64,000 bases of DNA, from assembly GCF_026151205.1 (NCBI RefSeq), contig NC_087083.1, forward strand, positions 9,357,460-9,421,459. The letters run 5' to 3'. This stretch comes from Bolinopsis microptera (lineage: Eukaryota; Ctenophora; Tentaculata; Lobata; Bolinopsidae). The notes under the pieces are model-generated. The model searched no databases. It saw only the letters and a list, made by a program, of their open reading frames with translations, and had not been told where the DNA came from. Made by a program: the position numbers and the translations under genes. This document shows positions 5,889-50,507 of the stretch, in pieces. Positions within the stretch are counted from its first letter, which is position 1, and every line of letters begins with the position of its first letter.

Positions 5889-7620
5889 ATGGCCTCGCTC
5901 TCTCTCCTCCTTGTTGCAACCTTTGCCTTTAACATGGTTGTCTCTGATATTGTTCTGGTGTCCAGTGACGTGACTGGACCTGAACCCTGCGCCAGGATCT
6001 GCTATGGAGAATCCGGTGGTAAGTTGGGGGAGGCTTACTTTCACTTTCACTTTTACTTTCACTTTCACTTTCACTTTCAGGGCAACGAGTATAATTTAGG
6101 ATAGCGCCACTCGCCAGCCCTAATTATCTCCGCCATATCATGTAACTCAAGTACTTAAGTAAGTCAAATAGGTAACGAGAATATTGCTATACAAGTGAGG
6201 AATGAGTCATGGTCACTTTCAAGTTTAACATGGTAAGCATTCAGGAAATTGTCAATGTGTCCCTTGTGGTGTCACGCAAGAGGTCACAAAAAACAATTAT
6301 TGTAACACTTAAGCTGTCGTAACGTTGTGAAATTCAGATAATAGTGCCCGCTGTTAATAAATGTAATAATATGCTAATACGATGTGTCACAATATGTAAT
6401 GTTACGTAATTTCTTAACAACTAAAGTTAAGAACTGCTTTGGATTAGCTGTTGTCTTAACAATTTGAATTATAATTGTCTGCGATTCCGTCACTCTCAAT
6501 TATGGAATATGGAGTTTAACTCTTATTTTCTTCTGTCCGGGACAACAATTAGGCTGTTCAGACAAACCAAAAAACAACGTCTGTAAATGTAATATTAGTT
6601 TTACCGAAATTACTTCTTGAGTTCATGCAAGTCCTAACACTTTTATTATTTAATCTTCCGCACCCTTCCGCACCATATCCACATATTCGCCAACCCAATC
6701 TCACAGGAAAATGGAGAAAGAACGGTAACTACCTAAGTATCGACTCCTCCCTGTCTGCCTGCAAGTTTGCCAGGAAAGCCCTTGTTCAGACTACCCTGGT
6801 GAACACCGGGGATTACTCTCAGTACTCAGGATATGTTGGAATTGAGCAGCCTACTTTCTTCAGGTAATGTTTTTTGGGCAGCCTACTTTCTTCAGGTAAT
6901 GTTTCTGGAGCAGCCTACTTTCTTCAGATAATGTTTCTGGAGCAGCCTTCTTTCTTCAGGTAATGTTTCTGGAGCAGCCTACGTTCTTCAGGTAACGTTT
7001 CTGGAGCAGCCGACTTTCTTCAGGTAAAGTTTTTGGGGCAGCCTACTTTCTTCAGGTAACGTTTCTGGAGCAGCCTAATTTCTTCAGGTAATGTTTCTGG
7101 GGCAGCCTACTTTCTTCAGGTAATGTTTATAGTGCAGAACACTATTCTTGACAATAGAAATTTCTTTTGTATTTTAGTAAATGGTCTGAGAAATTTCTTT
7201 TGTATTTTAGTAAATGGTTTGAGACAGTTATAGAATCCCTAAATGACATAATGCACCATTCTTGTTCGAAATGAGTTGTGTTTTGATTTTATAACAATGC
7301 ACCATTAGTCTACTCGGACTCCTAAGTTAGAGTTGTTCATTCAACAATGCAGCATTGAAGGATCTACAATGCAACTGTTTGTACTGCCATTCATTGCCGA
7401 GATTATCCCTATTTTGAATTTCAACCCTCAAACAAACGTTCCCCCTGCAATTACGAATTTCATTGCGTCTTAGTATATGAGGACAATACAGGTATTATTC
7501 TCAATTGTTCATATCTCTGATTCCCGCAGATACGAGATGTATGCCCCTGGAGTTTCAGCTGCTAAAGCTAATGCTGACGGGTACCAAATAAACTGGAGTG
7601 CTGCTGGTTACACTTGTTAG
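5889..7620 (+). CDS. small secreted cysteine-containing protein, three exons
   Basis: Exons 5889-6018, 6707-6863 and 7530-7620 join in phase (130+157+91 nt) to a 125-residue protein ending in TAG. Splice sites are canonical: G|GTAAGT, TCACAG|G, CAG|GTAATG, CCCGCAG|A. Residues 1-19 form a hydrophobic signal peptide (LSLLLVATFAF), so secretion is likely. Cysteines are at 34, 38, 62 and 125; the mature part has KW (45-46), YLSIDSSLSACKF (52-64), YVGIEQPTFFRYEMYAP (86-102) and INWSAAG (116-122). I do not recognise the family with certainty; the layout resembles small secreted beta-rich invertebrate proteins with an I-D-x-S-x-x-x-C-x-F and a late N-W motif. Function is unknown. Both introns carry tandem repeats, and intron 2 begins inside a minisatellite that duplicates the exon-2 donor. 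A TATA box lies upstream; no AATAAA was seen before the inverted repeat at 7699. Confidence 0.82.
6037..6080. repeat. TTTCAC microsatellite in intron 1
   Basis: About seven copies of ACTTTC with one TTTTAC variant, beginning 18 bp after the exon-1 donor. Confidence 0.9.
6846..7133 (+). repeat. 32-bp minisatellite of an exon end plus splice donor, 9 copies
   Basis: Nine 32-bp units (288 bp) each contain CCTACTTTCTTCAGGTAATG or a close variant. Unit 1 is the real end of exon 2 (PTFFR) and its donor at 6864; the other eight lie in intron 2. Eight of nine units keep the GT; unit 3 reads CAGATAATG. In the exon frame, AGG is followed directly by TAA, so use of any later donor would include an immediate stop codon. 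The amplified segment is therefore the exon-intron border itself. Confidence 0.95.
7158..7223. repeat. 33-bp tandem duplication in intron 2
   Basis: Two adjacent copies of AAATTTCTTTTGTATTTTAG followed by TAAATGG(T/T)(C/T)TGAG. Each contains a pyrimidine-rich stretch ending TTTTAG, resembling a 3' splice site. Confidence 0.85.
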
Positions 7621-7698
7621 AACTGGAAACGTCTCAGTCATGATCATTGAGTGAAATAGTTGATTTATTATTTCTTGAACATTATAATCCGATTATTA

Positions 7699-8208
7699 AT
7701 TTGACCAAAACCCATAATCATGGGTAGAGTGGACCGCTGCCAGTGTCTCTCTTTCCCAAACAAAAGGAAATGATATTAATTTGATTGACCGTTCTCAAAT
7801 GCAAAATGATACCGAGAATGAAATCGGTCGCTCGCTTTTCCCATTCATTCACGGCTTACGAATTGTAATAAGTTTCGATTGATTAGGTACATCAATCAGA
7901 TGCTGTAAAAATCTCTTTGGGTTGCGTTCGGGTCGATACCTAGTATTTCGGGGTAAGGGTGGTAGTTATTACTTATTGAATTAGCTGAAGTTTATTGAAT
8001 CTTTATTGCTGAATACAGCTGCCTTTGGGTAGTTCTTCTTAATCTATTACAATTGTAAATGAATGGGAAAAGCGAGCGACCGATTTCATTCTCGGTATCA
8101 TTTTGCATTTGAGAACGGTCAATCAAATTAATATCATTTCCTTTTGTTTGGGAAAGAGAGACACTGGCAGCGGTCCACTCTACCCATGATTATGGGTTTT
8201 GGTCAAAT
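7699..8208. mobile_element. foldback element with perfect 151-bp inverted repeats
   Basis: Bases 7699-7849 and 8058-8208 are exact reverse complements over 151 bp by direct reading, separated by 208 bp. Outer ends read ATTTGACCAAAACCC and GGGTTTTGGTCAAAT; inner ends read CCCATTCATT and AATGAATGGG. The loop margins remain partly complementary (AATTGTAATAAG versus CTATTACAATT). There is no ORF. The structure fits a MITE or foldback transposon; I found no convincing target-site duplication. It starts 78 bp after the stop codon at 7620, so it may be transcribed within that gene's 3' region. Confidence 0.93.
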
Positions 8209-9278
8209 ATCATCTCTTTTTGATTATAATGTCAGGGTACTTTATAAAGTCGAAATATAAACTGATATCTTCATTAATAAGGAGGAAGTTTCAACAATTT
8301 CGAAATTTTTCCTTTAAAAACATTTCCTTGTGTTTAGGTAAGCATATCGGTCGATCACTGACTGAATATGCCACTTAATACTCATTCAAGTTGGCATTAA
8401 ATTCATTTATAATGACATCAAACTGTCGTGGCAAAGCAGAATTTGTTGGAAATCACAAATGAGCACAATTCTCACCTTTCGCACGTGCAAACTTTAAGCG
8501 GACGTTGCGTGCGCATCCAATATTGAATCGCCGTAAAATTTTGCATGTAATTGTTGTATATATAGCTTGATAAGCATGCAAAGTTTCAAAGTATTTCAAG
8601 AAGAACTGTTATCACAACGGCACTCTAAAGTTGACAGAAAATGACGAAAACAGCAATTTTCAGTGATTTTAGCAATTTTCTATCAATTTGGGCGTGTCCC
8701 CATGTGTGCAACTTTTCGATTTTTAACTTTAAAACTAGCCTAATGCACAATTTATATCTATAGGAAGCAGAACTGAGCTCCACAACCCAAGGCATGGCCC
8801 AACACCAGAGAATACTAAATCGCAAAATTGACGTTTTTATAAAATAATTCTTCAAAAAAGCACAAACTTCAATGACGAATATCTTTATGAAGGAGCAAGC
8901 TAGAAAAACTTTCCGGTAGATTTTCAGAATGCTTGAACAATTATCTAAGGTGAAAATTTCCTCAGATTTTGAATAAAATTACTTTTTAATGGTGTAAAAT
9001 CATTTTTAAAAGTTATTACTTTGTCAAAAATCAAGTTTTAAAAACGGTTAACTTGATGACGTCATCAAGGGGTGTTCATGACGTCAAATAATTTGTTTAT
9101 ACAATGTAAACTAAAGTGTAAACAATTATTTTCAAGACCTGTGGTCGGAAATGGCTGTATCTTTTATACTTTTGAATCTATGGACAATTAAATACAGGCT
9201 ACAATTGACTGGCAAAGCGTCTATCCCTGAATATATATGTATATATGTATATATATAGATAGATAGATATCACGACAA
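8209..9278. other. non-coding; TATATG/GATA microsatellite at right end
   Basis: No convincing exon. The last 50 bases are TATATGTATATA followed by GATAGATAGATA (about 9229-9270), directly against the foldback element. Confidence 0.55.
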
Positions 9279-12200
9279 TAGTACAGGGAAATCCGTCTGA
9301 AAAAATCGATCTGCTGACACACGAAGCTTTCAGAGGATTTTTGACGTTTTTGAGTCCCATTAGGTGCCCTTTATGGCTGACCAACTTTTCCAAACTTTTC
9401 CACGTGGCTTAAGGCCACTTTTTGCCACTTTACCACTTTTTACCACCTTTCTTGTTTGTCGAATATCTTTAGTTGTGAACATCGTAAAAGGTTGCGAATC
9501 AATCGAGTGTGTTCATATTATCAGGAAGAAAAACTTTTGTTCTAACAATTTTTACGTCAGATAATAAGTTAATTGGATAATTATCAATTAACCAATTAGC
9601 AAAATTCTAAAATTTTTTTATTGGCTAAAAATGATCGGAATAGCTTAAAACACGGAGAAAAGTAGTTTTTAGAAAAAATTTGAAAATTTTTCACTCACAT
9701 TTTTTTTTCGAGACTTCGAAAAATTTCGAAAATTCAAAATATTTTTTTCCGCCAAAAGTGATCAAATTGCATGAAACGCGGAGAAAAATGATTTTCAAAA
9801 AAAACTTAGTCAATTTTTCGTTTCAAGAATACTTAAATCACCAATATTTGTAGTTGGAGTTTAGTAAATCTCGGCAGATTTTAGTAATAATCAGGAATTA
9901 CTAACTCTAAGTGGAAAGGTCTGAAACTGAAAAACGTTAAGTTTAACCATACGATCGCGATATAAGAGTTTCATAACTAATTACAATACAGCCTTATCGA
10001 TTTTCACAGAAACTGCACCAATGGCACAGTCAAGATCGAAACGATAGCCTGCTGTACTGTCATTTTATTGATTTCAATGATGAATCAGTGGGGTTAAGAT
10101 TTGTAATAAATAAAACCTCTCTGTACCGTCAATTGTGCTAATCTAAACCGGCCTACCTGTATTACCAGACCTCTTCTTTTCCTCAACAATCAAACCGAGT
10201 TGTTCATATCGCATTTGGTGGGTGATGTAAACTAAGTAGTAATACATATCGAGCTATATTCAATCACAATACGACACAATGCAACACGTGTATATTATAT
10301 TATGGCCCTTAATGAGGTATATGAAATGTTCTATACCGTACACTTCTCGTTTCTCCCGTGAGAGGCCCGATATGGAGAGGTTTTACAGTTAATCACGAAA
10401 ATGTCTACTTGGTCTCATGGCTCTTTGACAGCTCAAAGAAGGCAAGAAAAGACCAAAAAGCTTAGAATGTCAACTCGCAAGAGCGGGCTACCGGACAACT
10501 GAACCCAATTTAGACATTAAGATTAACCCTAACTCTAACCCTAACCCTAACCCTAACCCTAACCCTAACCCTAACCCTAACCCTAACCCTAACCCTAACC
10601 CTAACCCTAACCCTAACCCTAACCCTAACCCTAACCAATTAAGCTGATTGGTTAGTGGGAACTAGGTTCAATTGGGTTCAGTTGTCAGTCTTCGATCTGT
10701 CCCACATTAATCCCGAGCTGATCATCATGGGCCCCGAATATCCTGCGGGAAGAACCTGTATTTTTACTTCACGACGTCCGGATTTCAAATTAACATCCTC
10801 AATAACATTAACAATCCTTCCTGATCAGGATCTGTCTCTATTAGCAATTTCCAAAATATCCTGACTCTCGTGGAACATTTCACTGAATTAATTATTACCG
10901 GTTCTTCACTACCCCTTGCCCAACACTGTACTCGTATCTAAATCTTACCCTTTCCCGTATGTTACCCTTGTTGATTTTACTTTTAGCCGACCCTGACATA
11001 TGGGGGTGATTTGAGGTATCCCGCAAATGAAGCGGTATGCAGTACAATACAAAACAGTTACAGTAGATGTTGGAAGGTGTATTTACACTTGCTTCCTGGA
11101 CCTGGCTGTTCCTCAGTTTCCCTGATCTGTTCTTGCCCTTCTTCGAACTGTAAATGGGCCATGAGACCAAGTAGACGTTTTCGTGATAAACTGTAAAACC
11201 TCTCTATACCGGGTTTCTCACGGTATAAAGCGTTTCATAAACCTCATTAAGAGCCATATAATATACACGTACTGTATCGTATTGTGATTGAATATAGCTC
11301 GATATGTATTACTACTTAGTTTACATCACCCACCAAATGCGATATGAACAACTCGGTTTGATTGTTGAGGAAAAGAAGAGGTCTGGTAATACAGGTAGGC
11401 CGGTTTAGATTAGCACAATTGACGGCACAGAGAGGTTTTATTTATTACAAATGTGATTATCTTAACCCCACTGATTCATCATTGAAATCAATAAAATGAC
11501 AGTACAGCAGGCTATCGTTTCGATCTTGACTGTGCCATTGGTGCAGTTTCTGTGAAAATCGATAAGGCTGTATTGTAATTAGTTATGAAACTCTTATATC
11601 GCGATCGTATGGTTAAACTTAACGTTTTTCAGTTTCAGACCTTTCCACTTAGAGTTAGTAATTCCTGATTATTACTAAAATCTGCCGAGATTTACTAAAC
11701 TCCAACTACAAATATTGGTGATTTAAGTATTCTTGAAACGAAAAATTGACTAAGTTTTTTTTGAAAATCATTTTTCTCCGCGTTTCATGCAATTTGATCA
11801 CTTTTGGCGGAAAAAAATATTTTGAATTTTCGAAATTTTTCGAAGTCTCGAAAAAAAAATGTAAGTGAAAAATTTTCAAATTTTTTCTAAAAACTACTTT
11901 TCTCCGTGTTTTAAGCTATTCCGATCATTTTTAGCCAATAAAAAAATTTTAGAATTTTGCTAATTGGTTAATTGATAATTATCCAATTAACTTATTATCT
12001 GACGTAAAAATTGTTAGAACAAAAGTTTTTCTTCCTGATAATATGAACACACTCGATTGATTCGCAACCTTTTACGATGTTCACAACTAAAGATATTCGA
12101 CAATCAAGAAAGGTGGTAAAAAGTGGTAAAGTGGCAAAAAGTGGCCTTAAGCCACGTGGAAAAGTTTGGAAAAGTTGGTCAGCCATAAAGGGCACCTAAT

Positions 12201-12280
12201 GGGACTCAAAAACGTCAAAAATCCTCTGAAAGCTTCGTGTGTCAGCAGATCGATTTTTTCAGACGGATTTCCCTGTACTA
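9279..12280. mobile_element. 3-kb long-inverted-repeat (foldback) element with telomeric core
   Basis: The outer ends are TAGTACAGGGAAATCC at 9279 and its complement ending at 12280. Arms of about 1.15 kb (about 9279-10440 and 11140-12280) pair throughout. The outer 0.9 kb is nearly identical: I saw a single-base difference near 9450/12107, a C/T difference near 9697/11862 and an 8-bp AATCACAT insertion in the right arm. Similarity falls inwards, with a 17-20 bp indel near 10340. The same 66-codon frame appears at 9364-9564 (+) and 11995-12195 (-), which reflects symmetry rather than two genes. Telomeric repeats occupy 10524-10636, themselves flanked by the shorter inverted pair ACAACTGAACCCAATT and AATTGGGTTCAGTTGT. 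No transposase was seen. An inverted duplication rather than a transposon is possible; the flanks share only CAA. Confidence 0.85.
10524..10636. repeat. interstitial telomeric repeat (TAACCC)n
   Basis: 113 bp, about 19 units of TAACCC (TTAGGG on the minus strand), with one variant unit (TAACTC) near the left end. It sits between the arms of the long inverted repeat. Only one orientation is present, so this is not a head-to-head chromosome-end fusion. Confidence 0.97.
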
Positions 12281-12622
12281 CAATCTGTCGTAAAACAGGG
12301 GTTCTAGAAAACCCACTTCCCGATGTTCCTGAAACCCGAAACTTTTTTTGCAGTCGATTTGGTCAACGTCTAGACGCCCTGAAAAATTTCAGATCTCTAA
12401 CTCGATTTTAACATGGTTTTTAAGGCACCTGAATATGGCGATTTTGGGTTTTTTACCGAATTTCGTATAACAGTGCTGGCGAGTATTTTATGCAAATTTC
12501 TTAAAAATCTCAACATAACTATTTTTTAATCCTGTCATCTTTGACATCAAATTAGAATGTTTTGAACTAAAAATAAATCTGCTGAACGACTTCCGATGAG
12601 TCTTAATGCCTGAAAAACTCCT
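12281..12622. other. non-coding, no gene seen
   Basis: Open frames here have no recognisable domain and overlap the inverted-repeat edge. Confidence 0.45.
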
Positions 12623-12680
12623 GCCGGAGGCGGCGGCCTTCGGCCGCCGCCTCCGGCCGGAGTGCACGCTTCGCGTGCAC
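12623..12680. repeat. two adjacent GC-rich perfect hairpins
   Basis: Stem 1: 16-bp arms 12623-12638 and 12642-12657 around TTC (GCCGGAGGCGGCGGCC). Stem 2: 8-bp arms 12662-12669 and 12673-12680, again around TTC (GTGCACGC). The stretch is almost all G and C within AT-rich DNA. It resembles the hairpins of bacterial or viral terminators in form only; no T-run follows. Confidence 0.85.
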
Positions 12681-12892
12681 GAAAGAGGCTTGTAACGTGT
12701 ACCAAAGGGGGTATAATAGTAAAGGGGGTACATAGTATACCCACAATAAATGCACCGGTCGTGCTTGCCAGCACTGTGATTTGTGTGTTTCCCTTTCTGC
12801 TCAAATACAATATTATCCGAGTTGTAGAAGTAATAGTAAGTGCCGATTGACGCAAGGCTGTTGAGATTTTCATCTCCAGCTACATTAGTATC

Positions 12893-15043: not shown

Positions 15044-15967
15044 TATTTCTAATTTCTAATTTCTAATTTCTAATTTCTAATTTCTAATTTCTAATTTCTA
15101 ATTTCTAATTTCTAATTTCTAATTTCTAATTTCTAATTTCTAATTTCTAATTTCTAATTTCTAATTTCTAATTTCTAATTTCTAATTTCTAATTTCTAAT
15201 TTCTAATTTCTAATTTCTAATTTCTAATTTCTAATTTCTAATTTCTAATTTCTAATTTCTAATTTCTAATTTCTAATTTCTAATTTCTAATTTCTTATTT
15301 CTTATTTCTAATTTCTAATTTCTAATTTCTAATTTCTAATTTCTAATTTCTAATTTCTAATTTCTAATTTTTAATTTCTAATTTCTAATTTCTAATTTCT
15401 AATTTCTAATTTCTAATTTCTAATTTCTAATTTCTAATTTCTAATTTCTAATTTCTAATTTCTAATTTCTAATTTCTAATTTCTAATTTCTAATTTCTAA
15501 TTTCTAATTTCTAATTTCTAATTTCTAATTTCTTATTTCTTATTTCTAATTTCTAATTTCTAATTTCTAATTTCTAATTTCTAATTTCTAATTTCTAATT
15601 TCTAATTTCTAATTTCTAATTTCTAATTTCTAATTTCTAATTTCTAATTTCTAATTTTGTAATTATTAATTATGTAATCCTAACTAAAGCTAATTTCTTT
15701 TACATTCGCTTTGAGCAAGATGCACAGCTAAAAATTTCTAATTTCTAATTTCTAATTTCTAATTTCTAATTTCTAATTTCTAATTTCTAATTTCTAATTT
15801 CTAATTTCTAATTTCTAATTTCTAATTTCTAATTTCTAATTTCTAATTTCTAATTTCTAATTTCTAATTTCTAATTTCTAATTTCTAATTTTGTAATTAT
15901 TAATTATGTAATCCTAACTAAAGCTAATTTCTTTTACATTCGCTTTGAGCAAGATGCACAGCTAAAA
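15044..15967. repeat. 7-bp satellite (AATTTCT)n with duplicated flank
   Basis: Array 1 (15044-15656) has roughly 87 copies of AATTTCT with rare TTATTTCT variants occurring as pairs near 15295 and 15533. Array 2 (about 15733-15890) has about 22 copies. After each array comes the same 78-bp sequence, beginning TTTTGTAATTATTAATTATG and ending GATGCACAGCTAAAA (15655-15734 and 15889-15967). Part of the array plus flank was therefore duplicated as a block. Confidence 0.97.
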
Positions 15968-20782: not shown

Positions 20783-21882
20783 ATTATACAGACTAGCTAC
20801 ATATTATACAGACTAGCTACACTATAAAGACTAGCTACACTATACAGACTAGCTACACTATACAGACTAGCTACACTATACAGACTAGCTACACTATACA
20901 GACTAGCTACACTATACAGACTAGCTACACTATACAGACTAGCTACACTATACAGACTAGCTACACTATACAGACTAGCTACACTATACAGACTAGCTAC
21001 ATTATACAGACTAGCTACACTATACAGACTAGCTACACTATACAGACTAGCTACACTATACAGACTAGCTACACTATACAGACTAGCTACCTGCTACACT
21101 ATACAGACTAGCTACACTATACAGACTAGCTACACTATACAGATTAGCTACATTATACAGACTAGCTACACTATACATACTAGCTACACTATACAGACTA
21201 GCTACATTATACAGACTAGCTACACTATACAGACTAGCTACATTATACAGACTAGCTACACTATACAGACTAGCTACACTATACAGACTAGCTACACTAT
21301 ACAGACTAGCTACACTATACAGATTAGCTACACTATACAGACTAGCTACTTGCTACACTATACAGACTAGCTACACTATACAGACTAGCTACACTATACA
21401 GATTAGCTACATTATACCGACTAGCTACACTATACATACTAGCTACACTATACCGACTAGCTACATTATACAGACTAGCTACACTATACAGACTAGCTAC
21501 ACTATACAGACTAGCTACACTATACAGACTAGCTACACTATACAGACTAGCTACACTATACAGACTAGCTACACTATACAGACTAGCTACATTATACAGA
21601 CTAGCTACACCATACAGACTAGCTACACTATACAGACTAGCTACACTATACAGACTAGCTACACTATACAGACTAGCTACACTATACAGATTAGCTACAT
21701 TATACAGACTAGCTACACTATACAGACTAGCTACACTATACAGTATACAGACTAGCTACACTATACAGACTAGCTACACTATACAGACTAGCTACACTAT
21801 ACAGACTAGCTACACTATACAGACTAGCTACACTATACAGACTAGCTACACCATACAGTATACAGACTAGCTACATTATATA
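20783..21882. repeat. 18-bp satellite, about 60 copies
   Basis: Unit CTAGCTACACTATACAGA over about 1.1 kb. Variants are CACTATA/CATTATA, CATACT, ACCGACT, and short insertions (CTGCTAC near 21088, TTGCTAC near 21348, CAGTATA near 21743 and 21855). Blocks of variant order recur (compare 21088-21215 with 21348-21475), indicating block-wise duplication. Confidence 0.97.
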
Positions 21883-25375: not shown

Positions 25376-27160
25376 ACAGGATTAAACAGGATTAAACAGG
25401 ATTAAACAGGATTAAACATAAATTTGTCAATGAGAGCCCTAACACTCACGTCTTGGCTATACATCAATATAATAGAAATAAATAAATAAATAATGTGCAA
25501 GAGTTTTCTTAAAATAAAAATTTAAAAATCATAAAAATTTAACTTCGTCACATCTTTTGTTGAAAGAGAAACAAGTGCAAATAAAATAATTTAATTCCCA
25601 TGAACATGTTCCAAAATGATATGATATGTTGATCGTGATATGAAATTAAATGAAGCTCGACTTGACCGTCACGTGTCCGCAGAGGAGTTCCGTTGAGGTG
25701 TAGCGGGGACTTTACAGCTGGACTTCAGCAGATCCTTCTTAGTGACTTCCTTCTTCGGGAAACGCCTGTTGTTTGCTCTCACCAAGAACCTCGCTGTCTC
25801 TCTTATGAGGCTGGTATCTGTGAATAGCCCCTCTAAGTTAGCGAAAAGACAGGTTTTGGCTCTCTGACTAAAGCGGTGTCGGTAATCTTCATACAGGGAG
25901 CAGGTCCGGAGGACGTGTACCTCATCTTCGATGATGGGGTCGAAGAATGGCATTTCTGCGAAATTTTCGAGCATGTCCATGTCCTCTGTTGAGCAAGCTT
26001 TACATATCCGAGGTACGATCTGGTTTCTTTTGTGGGTTCCATGACGTCCTGTCTCAATATTGAAATTGTGTGAGCTTGATCTGAATTGAGCCAGCTTTTT
26101 GGATTCAGCGTGCGACAGGTTCATATTGAGGTACTGCTCATAGCCAAAACTCATCTTTATGGTGTTGTAGAACGTTAGTTTCTTGTTGTTCCATCTCTCA
26201 GTATTCCATATCTGCCTGAAGTTGGAACGCATCGCTTCTTTGATTTGTGAAGGTGAGAGTTTTAGATGATGTCCATTGGGTTGGTTTAGAACCGACCGTG
26301 CGGTCTCGATGTTGGTGTTCCAAGAAAGACTGAGGCTGCGTTGCTCTTTGAAGGCATGTCGCACAAGACTGTTAGATCCAGCTTTCTCCATTTTATCTAA
26401 TCTTTCCCAGTAGTTATACACTTGGGATGATAGCTCTATCGCCAAAGGGTAGCGTCCTGTGTCACCCCAAATTGCCGCATTTGATGTTTGTTTATTGACG
26501 TTGAGAGTCCACTTGAGAAACGAGATGTGAAGTTTTTCTAGTGGATCTTGCCTGATCTGTTTTAGGGTGGGAAAGTTACCCGATGAGAAGGCACCCATGA
26601 AGTATGTCTGAGGGAGCCAAATCTGGCATCCATAAGAGACTACTGGGACAATAAGTGCATCGAAGAGTTTAAATATTATCTCTTTCCTTATGTGTCGTAA
26701 GTCTATCATGCTTTTAAGCGAAAAATAACTCCGAAGTCCTTTCTGCCTAAGTTTGGACTGTGCGACCTTCAGGGATCCTGTCAGAGTGAAAGTCATTCCT
26801 AGGTACGTGTACTCACGAACTGAGTCGATCGGTGTTAAACCAAAAGCGAAGGTCTTGCTGTCTTTGAGTATACGACCAGCGCGGTTGAACACCATGATAG
26901 CGGTTTTAGACATGTTGACCACTAGGCCCCACTCCTGACAGTAGGCGTACAGAACAGAGAGCATTTTATGTAGGCTTTCAGGATTCAAAGCCAGAAGTAC
27001 TAAGTCATCAGCCCAGAGCAGATGTGTCACCTTGATGGAGTTAATGATGGGCACTTCGATGTTATCTAGCTCGTTCAGTTCTTCGGAGAGGGCATGTACG
27101 AAGCATTTATACAGTTCCGGGGACATGGGATGCCCTTGTTCAGTTCCACAGAACAATCAA
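25376..27160 (-). mobile_element. 5'-truncated non-LTR (LINE) retrotransposon
   Basis: Minus-strand insertion comprising part of ORF2 (25669-27156), about 250 bp of 3' UTR and possibly a tail of four GGATTAAACA units (25376-25418; complement TGTTTAATCC). An in-frame TGA lies directly before the open frame at its 5' end, where homology to the palm domain starts abruptly. This is typical of truncated target-primed integration. The DNA just beyond the 5' end (27190-27248) matches 23411-23468. Endonuclease and N-terminal reverse transcriptase motifs are missing. Confidence 0.85.
25669..27156 (-). pseudogene. LINE ORF2 C-terminal half: reverse transcriptase palm/thumb and CCHC-type end
   Basis: A 495-codon open frame; its first codon is TTG after a stop, so no true start is present. 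Residues 4-17, GTEQGHPMSPELYK, are the reverse transcriptase motif before the active site. LLWADDLVLLA (46-56) holds the catalytic Asp pair (50, 51), with Trp where Tyr or Phe is usual. NMSKTAIMVFNRAG and YTYLGMTFTLTG are the following palm motifs and VVSYGCQIW the thumb. Near the C-terminus ICKACS ... IEDEVHVLRTC forms the C-x2-C ... H-x4-C zinc motif of many animal LINEs (CR1/L2-like arrangement; clade not certain). The frame is intact over nearly 500 codons, so insertion is recent, but the truncated copy cannot be autonomous. Confidence 0.95.
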
Positions 27161-28474: not shown

Positions 28475-29254
28475 TTAAACATACTTCGGTTTATTCTTTC
28501 TCGGTCTGAGTTCATACTTTCTCCTCGGATCTCGGCCGTCTTCTTCACGACTTATGTCAGCAAGAGTAAGTCCTCTACTATCTATTTCTCCGAATTGCAT
28601 ATTGCCCTCTCTGCTCGGTCCAGCAGATGCAGCCGCTACTTCCGGACTAGAGTCAATGTTTTGAGATTGACTTGAATCTAGTGCATCGTGAAAAGATTCG
28701 GTGGTGTCTGCACTTAGATTTAATTGTGGATCTTCTTCCTGACGCGGTACATCGTTGACTGATGAGTTTACTATCGTGTCATCCAATCCTCGTTCCTCCT
28801 CTTCCACCACAATAGCCGGATCTCCGCTCCCAACTTCAGTTTGTGGTACATCATTTCCAGAACTTGAGAGACTCACTGGTGCTGACGCTTCTCCTCCACT
28901 TTTACTGATCTTAGATGAGGGACAAGGAATTCCTTGATCCCTCTTCTTCTTCCGACTCCTCGTGATGATGTGATAATCATCTGAATCATCTGAATCATCT
29001 GAATCATCTGAATCATCTGAATCACTATCAGTGACCACGCTCACTTCACTCACGTTGCCTTCACTTTTCCCAGAACAACCGTTGGGAAATCCCACAGCCG
29101 CTCCAGGAATCTTTGTGAGTGGCTCTCCCCCTTTATAAGGTTTCATCTTCGTGATGCTGGTCACATTCTTCTCCTGTCCCACCTGTACTTCCATTGTACT
29201 GTCGGTTGAATTCTCCACCGGATCCTCTTCTCCTCCAGCAGTTAGCTCGTACAT
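28475..29254 (-). CDS. retrotransposon ORF2: acidic Ser-rich protein, possible pol C-terminal remnant
   Basis: 259 codons, overlapping the end of the Gag frame by 122 nt in the +1 frame; expression could be by frameshift or internal start (ATG present). It contains an Asp-Ser repeat (SDDSDD, about residues 77-92; TGAATCATC repeats at 28977-29030), then DYHIITRSRKKK, long acidic Ser/Thr-rich sequence, and a basic end RRKYELRPRKNKPKY. TRSR-like and LRPR-like motifs are common near Pol or ORF ends in animal Gypsy-type elements, so it may be the tail of a largely deleted Pol. No enzyme motif is present. An adapted accessory protein is the alternative. Confidence 0.7.
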   Translation of the reverse strand: MYELTAGGEEDPVENSTDSTMEVQVGQEKNVTSITKMKPYKGGEPLTKIPGAAVGFPNGCSGKSEGNVSEVSVVTDSDSDDSDDSDDSDDSDDYHIITRSRKKKRDQGIPCPSSKISKSGGEASAPVSLSSSGNDVPQTEVGSGDPAIVVEEEERGLDDTIVNSSVNDVPRQEEDPQLNLSADTTESFHDALDSSQSQNIDSSPEVAAASAGPSREGNMQFGEIDSRGLTLADISREEDGRDPRRKYELRPRKNKPKYV

Positions 29255-30242
29255 GTCCGGTCTTGTTGCAATTCCAGCACGTTATGTTCTTGTAACCCCG
29301 CCACCCGTCTCGCTCTCTATCATGTACTTGTCTGGGTCTTGACGAGTTTCTGTTATCTCCTTGCCATTTGTCCCTATTTTCACCGGACCAAGATCTCGAT
29401 CTGCCATCCCCCGTAGGTCTCTGATAAGTAGCTTCTTCTCGCTCCTCCCGACTATTTTGCCTCGAAAATGAGGGGTCGTGAACGGTTGGCTCGTCATAAA
29501 ATGCCGTTTGTTTCATAATCGAAGAAACGGGAATTTCTCTATCGTTCTCATTCATCATCTTCTCAACGCCTTCTATTTTCTCTGCCAATTTCACTGCTTC
29601 CTCAAATGAAGCAAAGCTGGCTACATTGAGCTGCTGCATCACATTTTTGCTCCTTACTCCTCGTAAAAGAGCCAAAAGACAATTGTCTTCCGCTATTGTT
29701 ACATCCAAGTAAGCTACATTCGACTTCGCCCTCAGTCGAAAAACGTACTCACCTATATCTTCTCCCTGCCGCTGACGACAGTTAAGCAGTTCGTTTTTAA
29801 GTGCTGTAGCTTCGTTGCCATAGATGGCTCGCTTGTAGAGCGCACAAAAAAGCTCAGGATCTTTTTTCTCCCTATCACTCAGCTTGACTGCCCTCAATAC
29901 CAAATAGGTTTTATCGTCCACACTTTGGAGCAAATGCTCATTCAGTAATGGACTCTTCAATCTGGTTATTCTCACGTATGAGAGAAATCTCTCACAGAAC
30001 ATTGAAAAATCTTCTCCTTTTTCAAACCTCTTCAATTTAGCTGCTCGGGATGATTTTGAATTCAAAATCCTCCCTGATCCGTCATGATCATTCTCGCTCT
30101 CGTTATCCTCCAAATCCGAATCGCCCACATCGAACACCTCTTTTTTAATCTTTTTCTCCTGCACTTTGAGCTCTTCCAGTGCGGTTCTGATTTTCTCTCG
30201 TTCAGCTTTGATTTTCTCTCGTTCAGCTTTGATTTTCTCCAA
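29133..30242 (-). CDS. retrotransposon Gag-like protein with CCHC zinc knuckle
   Basis: Open for 369 codons. The N-terminus is a coiled coil of repeated EKIKAER units (30180-30242), followed by an acidic linker, a capsid-like helical region (FSMFCERFLSYVRITR ... LKNELLNCRQRQGEDIGEYV ... LLALLRGV) and a Arg/Ser/Gly-rich linker. CWNCNKTGHVRANC near 29256-29297 is the C-x2-C-x4-H-x4-C nucleic-acid-binding knuckle. Its role is assembly and packaging of element RNA. The listed first codon is TTG: the open frame runs upstream through an Ala/Glu stretch to a stop with no ATG, and a neighbouring frame reads SIDDYVAVTRK just before it, so the 5' end is probably frameshifted in this copy. Confidence 0.9.
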   Translation of the reverse strand: MEKIKAEREKIKAEREKIRTALEELKVQEKKIKKEVFDVGDSDLEDNESENDHDGSGRILNSKSSRAAKLKRFEKGEDFSMFCERFLSYVRITRLKSPLLNEHLLQSVDDKTYLVLRAVKLSDREKKDPELFCALYKRAIYGNEATALKNELLNCRQRQGEDIGEYVFRLRAKSNVAYLDVTIAEDNCLLALLRGVRSKNVMQQLNVASFASFEEAVKLAEKIEGVEKMMNENDREIPVSSIMKQTAFYDEPTVHDPSFSRQNSREEREEATYQRPTGDGRSRSWSGENRDKWQGDNRNSSRPRQVHDRERDGWRGYKNITCWNCNKTGHVRANCWRRRGSGGEFNRQYNGSTGGTGEECDQHHEDETL

Positions 30243-44061: not shown

Positions 44062-45708
44062 CTAAAGAGCTTTAACAAACCTGCACAGTTAGGGGTCGGA
44101 GAGAACACCCCCGCTAAAGAGCTTTAACAAACCTGCACAGTTAGGGGTCGGAGAGAACACCTCCGCTAAAGAGCTTTAACAAACCTGCACAGTTAGGGGT
44201 CGGAGAGAACACCCCCGCTAAAGAGCTTTAACAAACCTGCACAGTTAGGGGTCGGAGAGAACACCCCCGCTAAGAGCTTTAACAAACCTGCACAGTTAGG
44301 GGTCGGAGAGAACACCCCCGCTAAGAGCTTTAACAAACCTGCACAGTTAGGGGTCGGCGAGAACACCCCCGCTAAGAGCTTTAACAAACCTGCACAGTTA
44401 GGGGTCGGAGAGAACACCCCCGCTAAGAGCTTTAACAAACCTGCACAGTTAGGGGTCGGAGAGAACACCCCCGCTAAAGAGCATTAACAAACCTGCACAG
44501 TTAGGGGTCGGAGAGAACACCCCCGCTAAGAGCTTTAACAAACCTGCACAGTTAGGGGTGGGAGAGAACACCCCCGCTAAGAGCTTTAACAAACCTGCAC
44601 AGTTAGGGGTCGGAGAGAACACCTCCGCTAAAGAGCTTTAACAAACCTGCACAGTTAGGGGTCGGAGAGAACACCTCCGCTAAAGAGCTTTAACAAACCT
44701 GCACAGTTAGGGGTCGGAGAGAACACCTCCGCTAAAGAGCTTTAACAAACCTGCACAGTTAGGGGTGGGAGAGAACACCCCCGCTAAAGAGCTTTAACAA
44801 ACCTGCACAGTTAGGGGTCGGAGAGAACACCTCCGCTAAGAGCTTTAACAAACCTGCACAGTTAGGGGTCGGAGAGAACACCCCCGCTAAGAGCTTTAAC
44901 AAACCTGCACAGTTAGGGGTCGGAGAGAACACCCCCTCTAAAAGCTTTAACAAACCTGCACAGTTAGGGGTCGGAGAGAACACCCCCGCTAAACAGCTTT
45001 AACAAACCTGCACAGTTAGGGGTCGGAGAGAACACCCCCGCTAAAGAGCTTTAACAAACCTGCACAGTTAGGGGTCGGAGAGAACACCCCCGCTAAAGAG
45101 CTTTAACAAACCTGCACAGTTAGGGGTCGGAGAGAACACCCCCGCTAAAGAGCTTTAACAAACCTGCACAGTTAGGGGTCGGAGAGAACACCTCCGCTAA
45201 GAGCTTTAACAAACCTGCACAGTTAGGGGTCGGAGAGAACACCCCCGCTAAGAGCTTTAACAAACCTGCACAGTTAGGGGTCGGAGAGAACACCCCCTCT
45301 AAAAGCTTTAACAAACCTGCACAGTTAGGGGTCGGAGAGAACACCCCCGCTAAACAGCTTTAACAAACCTGCACAGTTAGGGGTCGGAGAGAACACCCCC
45401 GCTAAAGAGCTTTAACAAACCTGCACAGTTAGGGGTCGGAGAGAACACCCCCGCTAAAGAGCTTTAACAAACCTGCACAGTTAGGGGTCGGAGAGAACAC
45501 CCCCGCTAAGAGCTTTAACAAACCTGCACAGTTAGGGGTCGGAGAGAACACCCCCGCTAAAGAGCTTTAACAAACCTGCACAGTTAGGGGTCGGAGAGAA
45601 CACCCCCGCTAAGAGCTTTAACAAACCTGCACAGTTAGGGGTCGGAGAGAACACCCCCGTTAAGAGCTTTAACAAACCTGCACAGTTAGGGGTCGGAGAG
45701 AACAACCC
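44062..45708 (-). repeat. 51/52-bp minisatellite of a CCP exon end plus splice donor, about 32 copies
   Basis: About 1.65 kb. Each unit (minus strand) contains TCTCCGACCCCTAACTGTGC followed by AG|GTTTGTTAAAGCTCTT, that is, the last codons of the CCP exon (SPTPNC) and its donor. Units are 51 or 52 bp; the extra base is CTAAAG versus CTAAG (plus strand). The first three spacings from the exon are in frame, giving SPTPNCAGLLKLL repeats, and the next shifts to a stop at 45532. Longer blocks recur: 44759-44983 and 45120-45344 are nearly the same. Confidence 0.97.
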
Positions 45709-48208
45709 CGCGGTACACTCCACCTCCATGCTCCCCGCCACCAGATAGTATCCCGGAAAGCAAGATAACGTTACCACCCCACCGTCTGGTACAGGGAGTG
45801 ACTCAGTGGGGACGAGTACGTTCTGCCAGGATGGGGGTTTACTTTTGCAAGGGATTGTAGCACCTGTGGGTGGAGGGTTTTTACTTTTCTTACTTTTACT
45901 TTTCAGATAACTCTATTCTATCAGAGTATATACTTATATACTATCGATTGAGAAGCCGAATCAGTGCGCTCACAAACAGAAACCAAAAATATTCATTTGA
46001 AACTTTTAAATTTTGATAGCTAAATTATAATATATCCGTGCAGCTTACTTTTTTCAATTTTGCAATGCGCATCTCCTTTATTCTGGACGGTAACCTGCAC
46101 AGAATTTACTGGATCAGTAAATCCCAGGGTTTTTAGCTTGCTGGTTGTTGCTACTGGCAACCCCGGCTTTGTTGCAGAGTAGATCTGAAACTGGTCTCCC
46201 TCTTCGTCAAAGTGGATGATGATTTCAAGCGCAGCACTGTTCATGTTAAAGTCAGACATTATTTGTTGCTGTGTTATCGGGTCATAAATTGTCTTCTCAC
46301 TGCCCGATTGGTTAAGTTCCTTGATCTCAAGTGTGCTGATGACAAGCAACTCTATCTTAATGAAATGTAATTCTCCAATCACAACAAGAGGAGGATTAGA
46401 AACGGTGACTTTGTAGCTGATACTGATGTTGGAAGTGGTAAGGTCGATATAGTTCCAGGCTTCGCAAGCTGCGGTATCTGTAAAAGGGTAAAAGTTAAAA
46501 AGTTGTTATTTTTGGATACAGTCGCCTGAAAAAAAGCGGACGCTTTAAAGATTTCGCGAATATTCGACTTTTTCTAAAGAAACAGGTTTATTGATCAGCT
46601 GAAGCATTTCACAAAGCTTTTGTATGTTTTAATGCTTTCATCACCTCAACATAATAAATGATTTGATTTCTTTTGATTGCCAGGGAGGTGTTAAAAGTCC
46701 AAAATAAGGTTATACTTTTATCTTTGTCTTTAAACTTTTGAACTAGTGATAATTAAACGAAATAATTCATAACAGCAATAATTTATAATGATAATAATAT
46801 AATATATAAATCTGTCTATACGAGTATATGAGACAAGAAAAACGCTATCTTAGGAGGCGAGGAGGATATATAACATAATGTGGGTGACCTCCACAGAAAC
46901 TACTGAAACTTAATCAGAGGGTGAGTTTATTGGGGTCTGATACAAGGTATAACATTCTTTCCGGTTCTACAGCATATTCAGTAGACTCAGCTACATAATG
47001 GCTCAAGATGTTATGAGGTTATGGAATTGGTCAGCCCATCAGCCTCCCGTGCAGAAGATCTGACAACCGCTTTAGTGCTTTAGTGGTATATAAGGCTCAC
47101 ATGTTCTAGGAGTTAGACTCTATACGGCAAACTAGTTTCTGATGGCTTAACCCTTATCACATGTTCTAGGAGTTAGACTCTATACGGCAAACTAGTTTCT
47201 GACGGCTTAACCCTTATCACATGTTCTAGGAGTTAGACTCTATACGGCAAACTAGTTTCTGACGGTTTAACCCTTATCACATGTTCTAGGAGTTAGACTC
47301 TATACGGCAAACTAGTTTCTGATGGCTTAACCCTTATCACATGTTCTAGGAGTTAGACTCTATACGGCAAACTAGTTTCTGACGGCTTAACCCTTATCAC
47401 ATGTTCTAGGGGTTAGACTCTATACGGCAAACTAGTTTCTGACGGTTTAACCCTTATCACATGTTCTATAGGAGTTAGACTCTATACGGCAAACTAGTTT
47501 CCGACGGCTTAACCCTTATCACATGTTCTAGGAGTTAGACTCTATACGGCAAACTAGTTTCTGACGGCTTAACCCTTATCACATGTTCTAGGAGTTAGAC
47601 TCTATACGGCAAACTAGTTTCCGACGGCTTAACCCTTATCACATGTTCTAGGAGTTAGACTCTATACGGCAAACTAGTTTCTGACGGCTTAACCCTTATC
47701 ACATGTTCTAGGAGTTGGACTCTATACGGCAAACTAGTTTCTGACGGCTTAACCCTTATCACATGTTCTAGGGGTTAGACTCTATACGGCAAACTAGTTT
47801 CTGACGGTTTAACCCTTATCACATGTTCTATAGGAGTTAGACTCTATACGGCAAACTAGTTTCTGACGGCTTAACCCTTATCACATGTTCTAGGAGTTAG
47901 ACTCTATACGGCAAACTAGTTTCTGACGGCTTAACCCTTATCATACTAGGGACTATAATTTACAGTCTGTCAGGTAGAATGGTTTAGCTAAATCTTCCAG
48001 TCTTCACAATTCAACTTTTAGTTTCTAAAGGACTGCCAAGGCTATCCAGAGTTTAAAAAAGACTGCCGGCTTTTCGGTTATATATCCCTAGTCAAAACGG
48101 AAAAAAAATGTTTTAAATTCATTCAATAATTTTTACAATCGGTAGTTAGTAGTTTGACTAACCTGTAACCAAGTGAAGTAAGGAAAGTGCACTTATTAAA
48201 ACACTCAT
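45678..48208 (-). CDS. secreted protein with novel beta-rich domain and CCP/sushi domain, 3 exons seen
   Basis: Minus-strand exons 48163-48208, 46049-46477 and 45678-45863 join at phase 1-1 junctions (46+429+186 nt, 220 complete codons). Exon 1 encodes the signal peptide (MSVLISALSLLHLVT), directly followed by DTAACEAWNYIDL from exon 2. Exon 2 (residues 17-158) is one domain of alternating hydrophobic strands (ISYKVTVSNPPLVVIGELHF, LEIIIHFDEEGDQFQIYSA, VQVTVQNKGDAHCKIEK) that I do not recognise. Exon 3 is one complete CCP module (IPCKSKPPSW ... VVTLSCFPGYYLVAGS ... VECTAG ... PNC) with cysteines at 164, 193, 208 and 219; the usual Trp before the last Cys is replaced by Leu. Symmetric phase-1 exons are typical of extracellular modular proteins. 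The exon-3 donor lies at the head of the minisatellite. More exons should lie below 44 kb or beyond, unless the array is read through to the stop at 45532. Confidence 0.82.
46818..46875 (+). repeat. dispersed repeat DR1, copy 4 (in CCP gene intron 1)
   Basis: GAGTATATGAGACAAGAAAA then ACGCTATCTTAGGAGGCGAG; closest to copy 1 at 13400. Confidence 0.75.
47099..47942. repeat. 60-bp minisatellite, 14 copies with higher-order pattern
   Basis: Units begin ACATGTTCTAGGAGTTAGAC and end CTTAACCCTTATC. Unit 6 (AGGGGTTAG, GACGGTTTAA) followed by unit 7 (CTATAGGAG insertion) is mirrored by units 12 and 13, so a six-unit block was duplicated. The array lies in intron 1 of the CCP gene. Confidence 0.97.
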
Positions 48209-48305: not shown

Positions 48306-49784
48306 ATTCATGTTCCCAGATGACTTAGGATAGAGCAGAGAGTTCAGTTTTACAATTAGCAACTTGTGTATCACCTGTGAAACAATTAAGGGTACAAAAC
48401 AAGCCATTATGTGTCTTGCTGTACTTATAATTGAGCTGTTTTAGATAATTGGCCAGTTATTGATATTATCATATTATAGTGGAGTTTGAGAAGTTCTTGT
48501 AACTTTATCTATTAAGTTTTCAAATAGTGTTTTTAAAGGTGATGCAGCTGAACATGATAGTTGAAAATTGAAATGGAAAGTATGAAAAATAAGGTATGAT
48601 TGAACAGTTATTTATCTCAAACCGTTTAGTCTGAAAGCAATTTCAAAGTGAAATAAATCGATTCAATCCTAATCTCTCTCAAATCAAAATCACTTTGCAT
48701 TAGAACTGTTTAAGTGTTTAAAAACTAAACTGTTTTCAGTCGACAACTTTGAAGTAAATCAAAACTGCTTTAAAATAAAATTGTTCTGAAGTTCAAATAT
48801 TTTGAAACTACTTTACTCTGCACCGTGGGATTGGATTGTGGTTACGGTTATTATTCGATCTTCGGGGTTATTTAGGGTTAGGTTGGGGATTTAGGTATGA
48901 CTGTTTCGTACGGCTGTAAAACTGAAAAAATTCACGTGATAGCACGCTGGAGAGTGAATTAGTAAAAGCCGATGTACTTATTGACAATGACTATCTACAC
49001 TGGAGAGTGAATTAGCTAATTAGTAAAACCCGATGTACTTATTGACAATGACTATCTACACATCCCTATAATGAGTACTGACAGATATCTCAATATTAGA
49101 ATTCCTAAATATTCACAAAGAGTACAGACTAATTCCCATAAAACTATTTGCTCCTTCATAAAACTATTTGCCGATTTTAAAGAAAAATTGCAAAGAACGC
49201 ATGTTGTTGGACTTTTCCCAAAATTGGTAAAGTTTATGAAATATTTCCTGCTTAAATTATGTGTTTATTTATTAGGTTCTAACCTATTTCTTGGCGTTTA
49301 AGAGAATATATCAAAATTTGGAATTCATCCGACCACTTATAAGGACATAAGTATATGAGTGACAAGAGAAACGCCATTGTTGGACGTGAGGAGAGTGATA
49401 ATACATTTAAGCATATAAGCATATAGTTGGTATACATTCAAATACCCATTTTGGTTATAATGCGGAAAAAATCATTTTTTTAAGATGTTCAATTAATTTT
49501 CAAACAATTTTACATCACTCCTAAACTTGTTCATCCCAAAATTGTTCGCATTATTTACTACACCTACTATAACTCCCCTTTTAAATATTAAGTTCAAAGC
49601 AGTCTGGGCCTTGAAATAATCAAGTATTCTTGAACAATAAACACTTCCTCGGTTTTACTAAATATTCTGCTAAATAGCAATTATTGGCGGAATAAAATGC
49701 AATAAGATATTGCATTTGCATTACTTCTAACCCATATTATCATTCTCTCGTTTGAGCACAAATTCTATTTGAATAGTCTCCTAT
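48306..49784. other. non-coding; tandem duplication and DR1 copy 5
   Basis: GGAGAGTGAATTAG with CCGATGTACTTATTGACAAT is duplicated at about 48949-49062. DR1 copy 5 (GACAAGAGAAACGCCAT at 49361-49377, then GGACGTGAGGAGAGTGATAA) follows a short frame of no recognisable content. A short TTAGGGTTAGG lies near 48870. Confidence 0.6.
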
Positions 49785-50507
49785 AAACCTCTCCCTTAAA
49801 CCCCTCCATTTCTACCCTCCTACCTCAACAACTTACTATTAACCTCTCCCTTTAACCCCTCCATTTCTACCCTCCTACCTCAACAACTTACTATTAACCT
49901 CTCCCTTTAACCCCTCCATTTCTACCCTCCTCCTACCTCAACAACTTACTATTAACCACTCCCTTTAACCCCTCCATTTCTACCCTCCTACCTCAACAAC
50001 TTACTATTAACCTCTCCCTTTAACACCTCCATTTCTACCCTCCTACCTCAACAACTTACTATTAACCTCTCCCTTTAACCCCTCCATTTCTACCCTCCTA
50101 CCTCAACAACTTACTATTAACCTCTCCCTTTAACCCTCCATTTCTACCCTCCTACCTAACAACTTACTATTAACCTCTCCCTTTAACCCCTCCATTTCTA
50201 CCCTCCTACCTCAACAACTTACTATTAACCTCTCCCTTTAACACCTCCATTTCTACCCTCCTACCTCTACAACTTACTATTAACCTCTCCCTTTAACCCC
50301 TCCATTTCTACCCTCCTACCTCAACAACTTACTTTTAACCTCTCCATTTAACCCCTCAATTTCTACCCTCCTACCTCAACAACTTACTATTAACCTCTCC
50401 ATTTAACCCCTCCATTTCTACCCTCCTACCTAACAACTTACTATTAACCTCTCCCTTTAACCCCTCCATTTCTACCCTCCTCCTACCTCTACAACTTACT
50501 TTCAATT
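49785..50507. repeat. 55-bp pyrimidine-rich minisatellite, about 13 copies
   Basis: Units contain CCTCCATTTCTACCCTCCTA and CAACAACTTACTATTAACC. Strong strand asymmetry: almost all C, T and A on the plus strand. Several units show 1-3 base indels (CTCCTCCTACC, TAACCCTCC, CCTAACAAC). Confidence 0.97.

Follow-up and report, generated by a model that had tools for sequence, protein, structure and literature searches.

A telomere-like TAACCC array on a small mobile element nested within a dispersed palindromic transposon of Bolinopsis microptera

The 64-kb stretch of DNA analysed here (the window) contains, at 9279-12280, a 3,002-bp structure composed of long inverted arms with a near-central array of about 19 TAACCC units (Table 1). 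The outermost stretches of the arms (9279-10100 and 11459-12280, 822 nt) align at a printed identity of 100%, with a few mismatches visible in the alignment, and are followed inwards by segments of 180 nt at 99%, 44 nt at 84% and 93 nt at 86% identity, ending at 10442/11137. The array (98% matches) is bracketed by a shorter inner inverted repeat, GACAACTGAACCCAATT. A preliminary description, made from the letters of the sequence, was thus right about the inverted structure and its position, about the 19 TAACCC units in its middle and about the shorter inverted repeat beside them.

Table 1. Features of the palindromic structure and of the element nested in it (positions are those of the window)
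Feature	Position	Strand	Remarks
Left 3-bp target-site duplication, CAA	9276..9278	.	CAA on both sides; single CAA at the paralogous empty site L023
Outer element, left arm, terminus TAGTACAGGG	9279..10442	+	Outer ~1,000 nt resembles the right arm; inner part left-type
Nested inner element, GGCTACCGGACAACTGAACCC to GGGTTCAGTTGTC	10486..10686	+	Missing here in 11 of 20 further loci; solo copies elsewhere
TAACCC array within the inner element	10524..10636	+	18.8 copies; 4-19 units across 24 composites
Outer element, unique middle	10687..11136	+	No recognised protein domain; 0 Pfam families for the 91-aa ORF
Outer element, right arm, terminus CCCTGTACTA	11137..12280	-	Inner part right-type
Right 3-bp target-site duplication, CAA	12281..12283	.	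Matches the left CAA

The outer element belongs to a transposon family with copies dispersed through the genome, and is no local foldback. Its left arm gave at least 40 scored matches in the genome, on many contigs and at 92-100% identity, a lower bound because 40 of 1,401 first-look candidates were scored, and its end motif TAGTACAGNNNNATCCGTCTGA occurs in 335 exact copies in the 265-Mb genome (172 forward and 163 reverse; 0 for the reversed control), of which about the first 100 positions were listed. The copies end alike, with the common ends TAGTACAG, and the same 3 bp stand on both flanks in 35 of the 37 fetched copies with both ends, the exceptions being L043 and L055. Among the same 37 copies, such agreement was found in none when both flanks were read 3 bp further out and in one when one flank was shifted by 1 bp. 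The targets are not one fixed sequence (CAA, AAA, TGC, TCC and others), and a 5-bp duplication, ACAAT, noticed by eye around the window copy, was rejected because the flanks of the other copies agree over just 3 bp. The window copy lies within another dispersed repeat. L023 has this repeat in unbroken form, and where the window reads CAA-element-CAA it has CAA once, a paralogous empty site implying that the window element arrived by insertion. Dispersed copies with common inverted termini, a target duplication of constant length (3 bp) and an empty site are the features of a DNA transposon with terminal inverted repeats (TIRs).

The search of one arm against the assembly had been named beforehand as the way to tell a transposon, with multiple copies and common ends, from a single-copy local duplication, and its outcome is that of a transposon. 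A local inverted duplication is rejected by the dispersed copies and the empty site; together with a break-repair scar that captured telomeric DNA, as telomerase- or telomere-templated filler, it now appears extremely improbable. The combination of a palindrome with telomeric repeats is what such an event could leave behind, and telomerase at breaks has a mammalian precedent in the accessible part of one report (PMC2246262), but neither accounts for the 335 dispersed end motifs, the target duplications and the empty site, nor for a telomeric block that belongs to a mobile family of its own. The origin of the palindrome in double-strand-break repair, one of the options in the preliminary description, thus fails on the same evidence, although break-repair capture is a possible source for the first origin of the inner array. 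A second option, a transposon that captured telomeric DNA, came closest: the dispersed copies, common ends, target duplications and empty site agree with it, except that the telomere-like DNA arrived inside a second, smaller transposon. The inner ends of the arms differ by 19%, and target duplications vary from locus to locus, which makes an assembly artefact unlikely; the former difference also excludes a collapse of the arms to one copy, which had been named as an outcome that would speak against the structure.

The dispersed repeat hosting the window copy occupies 8001-9248 and 12281-12780 of the window. Nesting is reciprocal, as in L023 this flanking repeat (95.6% and 97.2% identity) sits within a copy of the outer element, and the L034 copy lies in a relative of it (about 83-85%) at a different position. 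Within the flanking repeat there is also a GC-rich near-perfect hairpin at 12617-12663 (22-nt arms, 95%).

The longest ORF inside the outer element has only 91 amino acids and matches no Pfam family, and the element is therefore taken as non-autonomous; it would be mobilised in trans by a transposase encoded elsewhere. Among the ORFs examined, in the part of the family read, there was no transposase of a named superfamily. The loci considered as autonomous partners were rejected on various grounds. The long TIR pairs of L036 and L037 contain reverse-transcriptase elements (RVT_1, E 4.7e-33 and 5.2e-31, respectively), the ORF of L039 is acyltransferase-like, the ORFs tested in L041, L047 and L048 match no Pfam family, those of L038 are of low complexity by eye, and L076, a locus with the inner TIRs, lacks a long ORF. 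In L036, an ORF at 7220-8752 with a 2OG-Fe(II) oxygenase domain (E 1.2e-17) lies upstream of reverse-transcriptase ORFs on the same strand, and perhaps represents a retroelement carrying an AlkB-like domain.

PIF/Harbinger transposons have a 3-bp TWA target, and membership in that group was rejected because the targets of the outer element vary as listed above. The Mutator-type foldback class exemplified by Tetris of Drosophila virilis (PMC4079207) and Tm1 of root-knot nematodes (PMC3169594), which are foldback-like long-TIR transposons with tandem repeats, was rejected as well, since these elements make target duplications of 8-10 bp, as given in the accessible parts of the two reports, and the outer element makes 3 bp. 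It shares with them the long inverted arms, copies without coding capacity and variable tandem repeats. However, the tandem repeats of Tetris and Tm1 are described in those texts as lying in the TIRs, whereas here the nested element that holds them sits between the arms. The arms of Tm1 average 93.15% identity, compared with 99.2-99.6% in each bin of the outer 1,000 nt for the outer element. In the same part of the Tetris report, its internal repeats are considered to be possibly homogenised (PMC4079207).

Within the outer element, the TAACCC array belongs to an element of its own. All 27 composite loci, which were picked by similarity to the window arm and from which no family share can be derived, contain TAACCC units, 26 of them in a perfect run of at least three and L019 with five units. 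We also chose 20 further loci among the listed outer end motifs on C1-C3. Eleven of these (L036, L038, L040-L046, L051 and L054) have the outer element without positions ~1200-1411, L037 has the array, and the remaining eight are fragments or not judgeable. As these 11 loci skip the block, the telomeric block is a secondary insertion. When the 11 array-less copies are aligned, ten rows break at one place and the gap of L045 is larger. The left junction of the inner element, readable in 24 of the 25 composites given, is the same in all, ACTCGCAAGAGCG followed directly by GGCTA, L013 differing by one base just within the inner element, and this common junction implies that the inner element inserted once and that the composite then multiplied.

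Independently of the composites, the inner element forms a TIR family with the ends GGCTACCGGACAACTG. Its end GACAACTGAACCCAATT has 172 + 158 = 330 matches genome-wide, composites included, against a control of 0. Five solo copies of 114-300 bp were read, and TAACCC arrays occur in four of them (L056, L057, L059 and L060), L058 having the same ends without an array; their 8-bp flanks agree at eight of eight positions in L058 and L059, seven in L060, six in L057 and one in L056. A longer relative, L076, has the same ends and repeated subterminal motifs. Short, non-coding, with TIRs, many copies and a tandem core, the inner element has the features of a microsatellite MITE. At the nested site no 8-bp duplication is recognisable around it in the alignment of array-less and composite copies; the right end of the window's inner element lacks a recognisable counterpart of the final ~8 bp seen in solo copies, and a short unexplained stretch lies at its left junction.

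We are therefore highly confident in reading the composite as a non-autonomous, foldback-like DNA transposon with ~1.1-kb TIRs and 3-bp target duplications, into which a single MITE-like TAACCC element inserted before the composite multiplied, with the repeats as passenger. The history begins with an older form of the outer element devoid of telomeric repeats. A small MITE-like TAACCC element, which may make 8-bp target duplications when solo, entered it once between the arms, and the composite of both multiplied after this nested insertion. The telomere-like repeats are thus most likely carried along by mobile DNA as a passenger, and are not necessarily the trace of a broken or fused chromosome end.

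The array varies in number of units (median 8 in the 24 composites), and its length would have changed by slippage or unequal exchange; in the composites that can be aligned over its full length, the neighbouring 415-nt unique stretch matches the window copy at 95.8-100%, L012 and L030 aligning over part of it. One composite, at C2:2364399-2367473, has at least 45 perfect units, as counted from match coordinates. That arrays persist in all 24 readable composites, and that this C2 copy carries such a long one, could suggest a telomere-related role, either because the element targets telomeres or because the host uses the array for telomerase priming or telomere-protein binding. Such a role is nevertheless very unlikely, given that the listed copies lie in chromosome interiors, that arrays go down to 4 units in composites and 2 in the solo copy L057, that array-less outer copies are also dispersed (on C1 and C2, the two contigs examined for them), and that, at either end of C1 and of C12, the outermost 400 bp contain neither a TAACCC pair nor an element end and give no BLAST match to the element. 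A telomere-targeting element, the remaining option of the preliminary description, accordingly finds no support in the position of the listed copies or in these chromosome ends.

The passenger may itself have come from telomeres or from within the inner element, and we give an even chance to growth of the array by slippage from a short seed. The two units of solo copy L057 and the presence of TAACTC and TGACCC variants favour such growth, as do other C1 repeats that mix GGGTTA with GGGTCA arrays, as hexamer drift in situ would produce. Chance explains less well, however, that TAACCC arrays also occur in two other, differently flanked repeat types of C1. Among the matches listed for C1 there are at least 14 clusters of five or more TAACCC units, three in composites, eight in a second repeat type, two in a third type and one in a plain tandem array (L065), so that telomere-like arrays are found in several repeat types.

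The second repeat type (L061, L063, L064, L066, L067 and L069-L071) has GACAATTGACCCC motifs and/or mixed GGGTTA/GGGTCA hexamer arrays, L063 being placed there by its GGGTCA arrays alone, and the motif GACAATTGACCCC resembles GACAACTGAACCC of the inner element. The third (L062 and L068) has hairpin-like flanks around CTCTAGGGCGTAAGA, with core TTAGGG runs of 5 and 29 units. Perfect TAACCC arrays are also found in the interior at C2:17218405-17218866 (~77 units) and C3:21176764-21177387 (~104 units).

The two arms of the palindrome show strong signs of having been kept alike within each copy. We tried 30 copies, of which 22 had both arms clean (20 composites) and eight were dropped because of indels or incomplete arms. 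Across the outer 1,000 nt of the 20 composites, the identity between own arms per bin given above compares with 97.4-99.3% between copies, the gap being below 1% in bins 600-800 and 900-1000. By contrast, at positions 1060-1177 own arms are 81% identical, whereas left arms of different copies share 97% and right arms likewise 97%. The own partner is among the nearest for 34/40 arms at 0-500, 24/40 at 500-1000 and 33/40 at 0-1000, but for 0/36 at 1060-1177, where 35 of the 36 arms have all their nearest neighbours among the same-side arms of other copies. In the tree of the outer part, the two arms of a copy are sisters in 18 of 22 cases (starred support for 13, identical rows for 2, weaker support for 3), and the other four pairs belong to L009 (the window copy), L017, L018 and L028; label changes number 21 against 38.3 in shuffles, with a bootstrap not fully settled. 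Of the changes private to one copy in the outer 1,000 nt, 42 occur in both of its arms and 69 in a single arm; at 1060-1177 the corresponding numbers are 0 and 16. With a rule of at least 16/20 copies per side, the columns diagnostic of left or right number 51, all at 1001-1177, although 30 of them are gap columns from few indels and the independent differences are fewer. The arms of about 1.15 kb are therefore near-identical outside, as previously noted, but in place of a smooth decay towards the middle there is mainly a step near 1,000 nt, followed by an inner ~180 nt with fixed left/right differences in the 20 composites.

Recent insertion alone, without arm-to-arm conversion, could be proposed for this likeness, because identities between copies reach 95.8-100% in the adjoining unique stretch and own and cross-copy identities are close in parts of the arm. 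We regard it as highly improbable: over the outer 600 nt, own arms differ by ~0.5%, less than left arms between copies (~2.5%), though the split between arms must predate the copies; 42 copy-private changes occur in both arms against 69 in one; the right arm of L024 is left-type up to 1096; and the outer tree is not clustered by side. This L024 arm, right-type from 1146, preserves a clear conversion tract from arm to arm across the step near 1,000 nt. The left arms of L033 (two patches) and L034 (1001-1007 only) also have right-type states, compatible with conversion, but they are ambiguous since the array-less L040 and L043 are likewise right-type over some of these positions, and an older retained state fits as well. 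Conversion between the two arms of one element would thus have occurred repeatedly, stopping where they were already too different, and might proceed within the element through a hairpin or through sister-chromatid repair. A bolder proposal, in which transposition or a later step rewrites the arms from each other as far as a mismatch barrier at ~1,000 nt, as a record of palindrome gene conversion, and in which a chromosome-wide set of mobile telomere-like tracts could seed break healing or bind telomere proteins, seems unlikely to us as a whole.

As a nested non-autonomous transposon, the composite is of a known kind in an unusual form, with telomere-like repeats on a small mobile element that is itself enclosed in a larger palindromic element. 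MITEs with microsatellites or satellites are known, such as the (GTCY)n MITEs of Lepidoptera and the Xstir and miDNA4 MITEs of Xenopus, and the inner element resembles them, as they are presented in the available part of a review (PMC9659126), in being a short non-autonomous TIR element whose tandem array spreads along with it. Unlike those MITEs, as far as that text goes, its motif is the metazoan telomere hexamer, and it is nested and co-amplified in a larger long-TIR element. Similarly, interstitial telomeric sequences are TTAGGG arrays inside chromosomes for which an excerpted review names transposition of mobile elements as one possible origin (PMC6410037); compared with that excerpt, here the vehicle, its ends, the target duplication and the order of nesting are identified. 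A search of freely accessible literature for telomeric repeats in MITEs, foldback or other non-autonomous elements, yielded nothing recognised as the same. The composite offers a concrete route to interstitial telomeric sequences that involves neither chromosome fusion nor break repair, and calls for caution in reading such sequences as fusion scars. Multicopy palindromes whose arms pass abruptly from alike to unlike also provide a natural data set on the homogeneity of inverted repeats. In Mnemiopsis, the accessible text of one study describes DNA transposons in promoters that join chromatin loops (PMC12221973).

Elsewhere in the 64-kb window, long tandem arrays with units of 7-60 bp occur at 2342-2818, 15045-15891, 20785-21858, 44062-45711, 47097-47943 and 49781-50500, and it is possible that they are the cores of other mobile elements. 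Probable retrotransposon remains lie at 25669-27156 and 29133-30242, judging from the domain matches of two ORFs: one is a reverse transcriptase (RVT_1, E 3.9e-14), and the other has weak zinc-finger/zinc-knuckle matches just below the cut-offs.
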